Source of the DNA: Flavobacteriales bacterium
Lineage (GTDB): Bacteria > Bacteroidota > Bacteroidia > Flavobacteriales_E > Vicingaceae
Reading direction: 5' to 3'
Length of the DNA: 64,000 nt
Assembly (NCBI GenBank): GCA_015075325.1
Contig: JABTUP010000002.1
Coordinates: forward strand, 186,001 to 250,000
Shown here: positions 41,140 through 43,152 of the stretch, piece by piece
Layout of the letters: each line of letters begins with the position of its first letter
Position numbering within the stretch: position 1 is the first letter of the stretch
Position numbers and translations under genes: made by a program
Notes under the pieces: generated by a model
The model's database searches: none
Told to the model about the DNA's origin: nothing
What the model saw: only the letters and a program-made list of their open reading frames with translations

Positions 41140-41201
41140 CGAATATGAATATTTTGTTTATATTTACTACTATCTAAATTAAATAAGAAAACCTATTAAA
41201 G

Positions 41202-42458
41202 ATGACAGCTGTTGCAGGAATACTAAACAAACAAGGGGTTGCTATTGCAGCAGATAGTGCTGTAACTGTCAGTGGACTACAAAATAGAAAAGTATATAAT
41301 TCTGCAAATAAAATCTTTACTCTTTCAAAATTTCACCCAGTAGGAATTGCTATATATAACAACGCTCAATTTATGGGAATTCCATGGGAAATTTTGATAA
41401 AAGAATATAGAAAATTCCTAGGCAACAAAAGTTTTTCAAAACTATCAGAGTATAAAGATAGTTTCTTTGAATGGCTGAGCGATAATAACTACTTTATTAT
41501 CGAGAATAATAATGATTTCCTATTCTCGGATTTACTGTCATTTTTACAAGTAATATTAAATGAAGCATTAAAGAAGAATAATGGAAATAAAGAAAATCTT
41601 GAGGATGAACTTCTGAAACTTCTTAATACCTATGTTAAATCTGAAATTCCTAAACATAGCAAAATTGAAAGTCTAAAAAATCTAAATAAGAAAAATACAG
41701 AGGCATTAATTAAAACATTTATACCAAATATTATCAATATACTTTATCAAAACACTTTAGTTTCCTTTAAGAAAGAAAAAATTGAACCTCTTTTAATAGA
41801 AGCATATTACGCTTATATAACACACGATCAGTTCATTCAATATACTGGTTTAATTTTTACTGGATATGGTGAAACAGAATTATTCCCACAATTACTACCA
41901 GTAAATGTTTCGATTGTTATTGATGGAAAGTTAAGATATAATATTGACCAAAATAAAACTGCAACTATTAACAATAAACAAAATGCTTGTATAAGACCCT
42001 TTGCTCAAACTGACGTAATTGACACAATATTACAGGGTGTGAGTCCTGAGCTAAACAACCTTTCTGCAATTGTTTTTGGGGACTTCATAAAAAGTTTTAT
42101 TGAGGAGATAAAATCAATACATGGTATGCCTCAAATTGTTCAAAAGCATCTCAATACATTAAATACTAATGAATATGTGAAGAAGTATCAAATACAATTT
42201 AATAATATTGTAAGTCAAAAATACGTAAATCCTCTAATGGGTGCTGTTTCTCAGTTATCAAAAGAAGATCTTGCTGAAATGGCTGAAAGTTTAGTTTATC
42301 TTACTTATTTAAAGAGAAGATTCACGATGGCTGAGGAAAGTGTAGGTGGTCCTGTCGATATAGCCGTCATTACTAAAGGAGATGGTTTTATTTGGATTAA
42401 AAGAAAACACTATTTTAATCCTGAATTAAATCAACCTTTTTTTCAAAAATATTTCTAA
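41202..42458 (+). CDS. Proteasome-like Ntn-hydrolase of unknown family
   Basis: The 418-residue protein begins MTAVAGILNKQGVAIAADSA. If the initiator Met is removed, as is normal before Thr, the N-terminus becomes Thr1 and the AAD motif places Asp at position 17, the spacing of HslV and 20S beta subunits. A Lys follows at position 36 in NKIFTL, close to Lys33. The next strand, VGIAIYNNAQFMGIPWEILIKEYRKFL, also follows the beta-subunit pattern. About 230 residues, Lys/Asn-rich and helical, then replace the short loops of HslV, and the C-terminal part has LIFTGYGETELFP and VGGPVDIAVITKGDGFIWI. It is longer than HslV or Anbu. I infer an autoprocessing or Thr-dependent peptidase/amidase. No ATPase partner adjoins. 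The 74-residue gene follows nine bases later. Confidence 0.6.
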   Translation: MTAVAGILNKQGVAIAADSAVTVSGLQNRKVYNSANKIFTLSKFHPVGIAIYNNAQFMGIPWEILIKEYRKFLGNKSFSKLSEYKDSFFEWLSDNNYFIIENNNDFLFSDLLSFLQVILNEALKKNNGNKENLEDELLKLLNTYVKSEIPKHSKIESLKNLNKKNTEALIKTFIPNIINILYQNTLVSFKKEKIEPLLIEAYYAYITHDQFIQYTGLIFTGYGETELFPQLLPVNVSIVIDGKLRYNIDQNKTATINNKQNACIRPFAQTDVIDTILQGVSPELNNLSAIVFGDFIKSFIEEIKSIHGMPQIVQKHLNTLNTNEYVKKYQIQFNNIVSQKYVNPLMGAVSQLSKEDLAEMAESLVYLTYLKRRFTMAEESVGGPVDIAVITKGDGFIWIKRKHYFNPELNQPFFQKYF

Positions 42459-42463
42459 CTTTG
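42456..42463 (+). promoter_or_regulatory. -7 element TAACTTTG overlapping a stop codon
   Basis: TAACTTTG matches TAnnTTTG and begins with the TAA stop of the Ntn-hydrolase gene. The next ATG is only four bases downstream, so a transcript from this site would be leaderless or nearly so. Confidence 0.5.
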
Positions 42464-42467
42464 CATT

Positions 42468-42692
42468 ATGTTAACTCTTTTAACAGATTATAGCTCAAAC
42501 TCAATGTTTGAAGATAATTCAACTCAAATCATCCTTGACTTGAGTTGTATCGAAACTCCTACGGAGAAGCCACAAAAACATATTGATATTACGAAAGCCT
42601 CAATTGAAGATTTAAGTTCTTTGATTGTTAAAGACATGATCTCTTCTGTCAAAAAGGATCTAGCAAAGATTGTTTCAAAGAGTAAAAAATAA
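42468..42692 (+). CDS. Small hypothetical protein following the Ntn hydrolase
   Basis: The 74-residue protein starts MLTLLTDYSSNSMFEDNS and ends in a basic stretch (KKDLAKIVSKSKK), with a Thr/Pro/Lys segment (IETPTEKPQKHIDIT) in the middle. I recognise no domain, signal peptide or membrane helix. It begins nine bases after the Ntn-hydrolase stop, so the two may be cotranscribed, although it also has its own -7 element. A substrate, tag, regulator or unrelated protein are all possible. Confidence 0.55.
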   Translation: MLTLLTDYSSNSMFEDNSTQIILDLSCIETPTEKPQKHIDITKASIEDLSSLIVKDMISSVKKDLAKIVSKSKK

Positions 42693-42765
42693 TCTCTTTT
42701 AGTTTTTAGCATTCTTTGTTTATTAATAAAACTTAGATTTTTTTTAAATCTAATAAAATTGTCAT

Positions 42766-43143
42766 ATGAAACCCGACATCTCCTCCCAAGAAGACATTAA
42801 ATTATTGGTTGATACTTTTTACAACAAAGTACAAACAAACGCCACGTTGGGTTATATATTTAACGATGTGGCAAAACTCAATTGGGATGAGCATTTACCA
42901 AAAATGTATTCGTTTTGGGGCAGTTTGCTTTTGCAAGAACATTCTTATCAGGGCAACCCCATGCAAATACATGTAGAATTGAGCAAAATAACAACCATGA
43001 GTTCCGTAGAGTTCTCCGAATGGATAAATCTATTTTACCAAACCGTTGACGAATTGTTTGAAGGTGAAATTGCCTCTGAAGCAAAAATAAGAGCAGCAAA
43101 CATTGCTCGTTTAATGCAACATCGAATTGAAATAATCAAGTAA
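42766..43143 (+). CDS. Group III truncated haemoglobin
   Basis: The 125-residue globin has the group III features: LVDTFYNKVQTNATLGYIFNDVA, FWGSLLLQEHSYQGNPMQIHVEL with the proximal His in the last motif (residue about 68), and FSEWINLFYQTVDELFEG. Group III globins bind O2 or NO and are thought to take part in redox or nitrosative stress. It is cytoplasmic, and the ATG start is unambiguous. It ends 9 bases before recJ, suggesting cotranscription without a known functional link. Confidence 0.9.
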   Translation: MKPDISSQEDIKLLVDTFYNKVQTNATLGYIFNDVAKLNWDEHLPKMYSFWGSLLLQEHSYQGNPMQIHVELSKITTMSSVEFSEWINLFYQTVDELFEGEIASEAKIRAANIARLMQHRIEIIK

Positions 43144-43152
43144 ATTTGTTTC

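Follow-up and report, generated by a model that had tools for sequence, protein, structure and literature searches.

In 2021, Fuchs, Alva and Lupas reported 22 new homologs of the proteasome, among them the PMI proteins (proteasome homologs with multiple insertions), of which PMI-3 and PMI-4 are defined by insertions at two sites, after H1/H2 and between H3 and H4, with none at S3/S4 (PMC8665760). PMI-4 comprises about 500 uncharacterised sequences in bacteria, archaea and phages, spread over Bacteroidota, Firmicutes, Cyanobacteria, PVC, Euryarchaeota and phages, whereas the range of PMI-3 is narrow (PMC8665760). The authors found neither genomic contexts hinting at function nor an AAA+ partner, and ATPase-independent clearance roles were suggested for such homologs (PMC8665760). 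Among the branches of the proteasome family that are uncharacterised, PMI-4 is one of the largest; when listed in 2021 it had neither a partner nor a functional clue.

Here we analysed a 64,000-nucleotide stretch of a Flavobacteriales genome (contig JABTUP010000002.1; hereafter the window), which carries a hydrolase that fits PMI-4 and, directly behind it, a small second gene. The hydrolase family is already known, being catalogued and uncharacterised, while the near-constant partner and the evidence from genomic locations are absent from the literature found. Neither PMI proteins nor the hydrolase/small-gene pair were the subject of any later paper in our literature search, which also returned no published account of the small second gene.

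The hydrolase carries a conserved threonine-type triad

The hydrolase gene (41202..42458, + strand) starts with ATG and encodes 418 aa, and the small gene (42468..42692) follows 9 bases later, as the earlier note on this DNA had placed them. That note had also proposed a Thr1/Asp17/Lys36 triad close to that of proteasome subunits. For comparison we took the best 80 of 227 relatives (L003-L082, from bacteria and archaea) in a scan with one genome per species, and residue conservation was counted over 81 aligned hydrolase sequences. The catalytic Thr (Thr1 in mature numbering; codon 41205..41207, +) is Thr in 78 sequences and Ser in 2. Asp17 (41253..41255, +; Asp18 with the Met) and Lys36 (41310..41312, +; Lys37 with the Met), the latter equivalent to proteasome Lys33, are present in 81/81. 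Conservation of Thr2 and Asp18 among homologs was one of the two points on which the earlier note had staked its proposal, and the proposal survived this comparison. The C-terminal strands and tail (GDGFIWIKRKHYF) form the best-conserved stretch of the family; in residues 377-418 (42330..42455, +), which include GGPVDIAVITKGDGFIWIKRKHYF, 25 of 42 columns are at least 90% conserved. No obvious retention of the equivalents of proteasome Asp166 and Ser169 was seen in the 81-sequence alignment. Because the N-terminus aligns at the same point in nearly all relatives, the hydrolase needs no propeptide, and its mature N-terminus is expected from the sequence to be Thr1 after removal of the Met.

Scans against Pfam, NCBIfam and PADLOC matched neither the hydrolase nor the small protein to a family, and PADLOC models gave no match to either at E<=1. 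Across the whole window genome we found no Pfam Proteasome (PF00227) match and no HslU above the curated cut-off, and none adjoins the hydrolase, in agreement with the previous observation that no unfoldase lies next to it. Since the genome has no other Pfam proteasome-family protein and no HslU, the hydrolase is expected to work without a dedicated unfoldase. Its assignment as HslV was rejected on the same genome-wide results and on the lack of a Pfam proteasome match in the protein itself.

The predicted fold and two helical inserts fit PMI-4

A structure prediction, the check that had been proposed for a proteasome-like Ntn fold, upheld that fold. The AlphaFold2 model of the hydrolase (73-row alignment) reached a pLDDT of 90.1 and a pTM of 0.88, and Foldseek against the PDB gave 20S proteasome beta subunits and Anbu as the best matches (prob 1.00, E 8e-5 to 1e-3, target-normalised TM 0.34-0.54). 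As modelled, the protein is a proteasome-superfamily Ntn hydrolase with the alpha-beta-beta-alpha fold of proteasome beta. By sequence, phmmer with the window hydrolase against the PDB returned chance helical matches only. The family profile against PDB sequences returned mostly cullin-like helical matches, which fell on the insert, together with a weak match to proteasome beta at 386-403 (E 0.046). Because these PDB sequence searches are weak, we base the homology on the modelled fold, on the catalytic residues and on the family as published.

The model contains two helical inserts. Insert I (residues about 96-209; 41487..41828, +) lies after H1/H2, at the 'pore loop' site of the proteasome, and insert II (residues about 305-350; 42114..42251, +) lies between H3 and H4. 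Insert I is 112-130 aa long across the family, and both inserts are poorly conserved in sequence and nearly constant in length. The helical insertion reported earlier as Lys/Asn-rich consists of two inserts and not one. Secondary structure in the model showed no insert between S3 and S4. This arrangement excludes PMI-1, -2, -5 and -6 and does not exclude PMI-3. Relatives of the hydrolase occur in Bacteroidota, Firmicutes, Cyanobacteria, PVC, Euryarchaeota and phages, and PMI-4 is preferred over PMI-3 because of this broad taxonomic spread. The hydrolase thus fits the PMI-4 type, being placed by the insert sites and taxonomic spread described for that family (representative HDY66466.1). The suggestion that it founds a new family has to be dropped, as PMI-4 was already listed (PMC8665760). 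Connectase was also considered and rejected, since connectase lacks H1/H2 and has a two-helix S3/S4 insertion, and the hydrolase model shows the reverse.

A small gene under purifying selection follows the hydrolase

The small partner gene (42468..42692, +) starts with ATG on the same strand as the hydrolase and encodes 74 aa. To score such genes we counted ATG ORFs of 40-90 aa starting between -30 and +40 nt of the hydrolase stop. A small ORF (about 35-80 aa) was found behind the hydrolase in 149/159 loci from bacteria, archaea and phages, a set with near-duplicates among its viral loci, as compared with 182/1230 (14.8%) for the other genes of the same loci (Fisher p ~1e-92). In most of the 10 loci that failed the test, the ORF starts with GTG, is shorter or overlaps the hydrolase further. 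Moreover, each of the 109 usable pairs had a pN/pS below 1, with a median of 0.39 for the small ORF against 0.31 for the hydrolase, indicating that the small ORF is a real protein under purifying selection. The two-gene neighbourhood suspected in the earlier note is thereby confirmed. That the ORF is a chance neighbour with no functional link, as short ORFs behind genes might suggest given a background of 15%, is extremely improbable: at the level of gene linkage this idea is refuted by the above counts, by the purifying selection, by homology across phyla and by co-transfer in phages and plasmids.

The cross-phylum homology was seen by hhalign, in which the Bacteroidota, flavobacterial and archaeal/Planctomycetes-type profiles of the small protein matched mutually (E 1.3e-5 and 4.7e-4) and the small proteins of the window clade matched the Bacteroidota profile (E 4.9e-4), while reversed controls gave E 0.045 or worse. 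Gammaproteobacterial and Firmicutes small proteins were too divergent in this profile comparison for a sequence link to the others. The small protein diverges fast, and most versions have an amphipathic C-terminal helix; this helix and an aromatic N-terminal motif (e.g. EFEKxFFPKSF) are its common elements. In the window protein, the helix spans residues 46-73 (42603..42686, +) and is covered by the cross-clade profile match. We also modelled both window proteins as one read-through product across the intervening stop codon (48-row alignment, 15 rows joined). There the helix had a pLDDT of about 79-86, a range that a free helix can reach too, and the remainder of the small protein was mostly disordered. 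We hypothesize from this model that the C-terminal helix docks on the hydrolase. Docking by a common helix is opposed by the gammaproteobacterial small proteins, which lack the C-terminal helix and have an aromatic end instead.

Small proteins from gammaproteobacterial viral contigs (L144-L181) in many cases end in an aromatic C-terminus (SFSW, LFCW, YFNW) and carry no C-terminal helix; this end is possibly a docking tail. No hydrolase/small-gene fusion was found, and two long hydrolases, L251 (478 aa) and L133 (465 aa), proved to differ only in a longer tail at the C-terminus. The small ORF of L133 lies in another frame and overlaps the hydrolase; L251 yielded no small ORF. A distant relative (L094 1462-2259, minus strand; L267, IMGVR_UViG_2791354991_000001) has 265 aa, no helical inserts and the sequence MSLILSVQTPDGIVIAGDS...TVGGAIDIALV, and its stop is overlapped by 8 nt by a 53-aa ORF, suggesting that the small partner may extend beyond PMI-4.

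A variable and mostly disordered protein beside a conserved Thr hydrolase could also be the substrate of the enzyme, cleaved or ligated to a target as connectase does with its recognition sequence, and connectase shows that the fold can ligate (PMC8665760). However, no cleavage or ligation motif is common to the small-protein clades, whose conserved parts resemble docking helices, and the connectase S3/S4 insertion is absent from the hydrolase model. We regard this role as very unlikely.

The hydrolase stop codon is overlapped by TAACTTTG (42456..42463, +), a Bacteroidota-type -7 element identified by consensus match only. It fits the Bacteroidota TAnnTTTG box, and L003 (TAACTTTG) and L004 (TAATTTTG), the two nearest relatives, have it at the same position. 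Judging from the sequence, transcription of the small gene probably begins at this box, with a short leader. Such boxes near an ATG are common in this genome, with 7 in the 64 kb window at a gap of <=12 nt, and the near-leaderless promoter of the small gene is therefore ordinary. The element described earlier over the stop codon is present; what had been singled out as near-leaderless is a usual Bacteroidota feature of the genome.

The pair is sparsely distributed and carried by mobile elements

The hydrolase is rare near the window genome. Among 60 relatives, matches were found only in the window genome and one other; in its own family the single positive of 36 sampled genomes was the window genome itself; and in the phylum 7/395 genomes were positive, one of the seven carrying a distant relative. 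It is encoded on at least 105 IMG/VR contigs and on ten plasmid records, and annotated phages carry it as cargo. The Streptococcus satellite Javan103 ends with the hydrolase and the small gene, and the prophage Javan85 record ends with the hydrolase, which comes after the lysin. A Porphyromonas phage has the hydrolase in the midst of its head genes, a Providencia phage has it between antiterminator Q and holin, and in a Stenotrophomonas phage it stands on the opposite strand next to the lysis genes. In E. coli it occurs in 22/5426 genomes, and both contexts read were prophages, one with the hydrolase beside antiterminator Q and the other with it directly behind the helix-turn-helix repressor gene of a RecE/RecT prophage. 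In related E. coli prophages, these positions are taken by different small cassettes. These results show that the hydrolase/small-gene pair is mobile cargo, moving between bacteria, archaea and phages.

At the antiterminator-Q side site, two E. coli prophages (L255 3226-4953 and L256 2595-4987) have other opposite-strand cassettes. The cassettes of the E. coli sites encode TIGR04255 with two unknowns, and a nucleoid-associated protein with an unknown; they had no match in PADLOC. On Rhizobium and Mesorhizobium plasmids (L249 5274-11751 and L251 4733-9437), the hydrolase lies beside multiubiquitin and ThiF-type E1 genes, in R. gallicum with Clp-protease-like genes too, a setting of bacterial ubiquitin-like operons.

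Carriage on plasmids, prophages and satellites, two genes with the small partner nearly always there, and a window small gene that may have its own promoter would also suit a toxin-antitoxin or addiction pair, in which the free hydrolase is harmful, the small protein inhibits it and the benefit is stabilisation of the carrier element. The very strong conservation of the hydrolase active site across phyla speaks against such a pair, as do the gene order, with the enzyme first, and the Pfam, NCBIfam and PADLOC scans, which matched no antitoxin family; nor is the hydrolase known to be toxic. We consider it quite unlikely.

The immediate neighbours of 80 hydrolase loci were mostly housekeeping genes with only scattered defence homologs in a simple tally, and no recurrent partner beyond the small gene was found among them. 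The many chromosomal copies between housekeeping genes, the same upstream neighbour position in four Flavobacteriaceae species and archaeal copies in many lineages are consistent with a general hydrolase for protein quality or peptide turnover, and the ATPase-independent clearance suggested for such homologs (PMC8665760) points the same way. The small protein would then be an adaptor that feeds substrates or links a host unfoldase such as ClpX, and spread by phages would reflect mild usefulness only. However, the sparsity of 7/395, the hot-spot and satellite sites and the fast-diverging partner are unusual for quality control, and we hold this explanation to be unlikely, if worth bearing in mind.

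The window pair occupies a variable defence-type site

Comparison with two genomes of the same genus, G003 and G001, delimited a variable insertion site between an outer-membrane-protein gene upstream and recJ downstream (41140..43152). In the window it contains the hydrolase, the small gene and a truncated-haemoglobin type gene (42766-43143), the last lying between the cassette and recJ. In G003 the site is empty, and about 75 bp separate the two flanking genes. In G001 the same gap holds 4.2 kb. Three of its genes, for a reverse transcriptase, a regulator and a small protein, match the PADLOC type VI retron models (RT_VI, HTH_VI and SP_VI), and a type II methyltransferase and a restriction enzyme follow; the retron and restriction-modification genes together lie at L245 2557-5884. 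The gap is thus a variable defence-type site in the genus. The truncated-haemoglobin homologs of relatives sit elsewhere in their genomes, so the window copy may be an insertion too; this gene was therefore unsuitable as a flank of the empty site, and the outer-membrane-protein and recJ genes worked.

The presence of known anti-phage systems of a sister species at the site of the window pair is, although it concerns one site, the strongest single pointer to function. The mobility of the pair and this insertion hotspot go beyond what the earlier note had recognised.

Proposed function

We propose that the pair is a two-component mobile accessory module of a threonine hydrolase and a dedicated small controlling subunit, most likely employed in phage-host conflict, and assign this reading a probability of about 0.5. 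Phage-host conflict is the most likely task because the pair is cargo of prophages, phage satellites, plasmids and chromosomal defence-type sites, locations that suggest a role in conflicts with phages. The hydrolase would be a threonine-nucleophile enzyme, most likely a peptidase or protease, active after Met removal and without a dedicated ATPase, and its helical inserts probably form a private entrance or assembly. The small protein would be a dedicated subunit, largely disordered, whose amphipathic C-terminal helix probably docks on the enzyme, with the aromatic N-terminal motif also taking part in many lineages. It would control the hydrolase as an inhibitor, a gate or a sensor, and a phage or competing element that disturbs it would release or redirect the enzyme. 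The fold, the conserved catalytic residues, the near-constant pairing under selection and the sparse, mobile distribution are observed here, while proteolysis, docking, the direction of control and an anti-phage function are inferred. Against a defensive role, the pair has no PADLOC match, nor have the cassettes that take its place in E. coli prophages; its chromosomal neighbours are mostly housekeeping genes, and phage cargo may serve otherwise.

More tentatively, and with somewhat less confidence than an even bet, the pair may represent a widespread, previously undescribed bacterial and archaeal phage-conflict system built on the proteasome fold. In it, a fast-evolving small subunit encoded alongside would hold and trigger a free-standing threonine protease, and the system would travel with prophages and phage satellites and be swapped at defence sites. 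The near-constant small partner gene provides the first concrete biochemical handle on PMI-4, and the satellite, prophage-cargo and retron/R-M exchange locations make its role testable as phage defence.

Comparison with known systems

The window hydrolase shares with PMI-4 the proteasome-like core, Thr1/Asp17/Lys, the inserts after H1/H2 and between H3 and H4 with none at S3/S4, the occurrence in bacteria, archaea and phages and the lack of an unfoldase, while neither the small partner gene nor the evidence from the insertion site appears in the paper that described PMI-4 (PMC8665760). With the 20S proteasome beta subunit and HslV it has the Ntn fold, the catalytic triad and the N-terminal Thr in common. 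It differs from them in being about twice as long, in two helical inserts, a possible obstacle to double rings, and in having no propeptide and no HslU or proteasomal ATPase partner. Anbu is among the best structural matches and likewise has no known unfoldase, but it is about 240 aa long, carries a C-terminal coiled-coil helix and no inserts, and stands in another genome context. Similarly, connectase is a proteasome homolog with a specific substrate partner.
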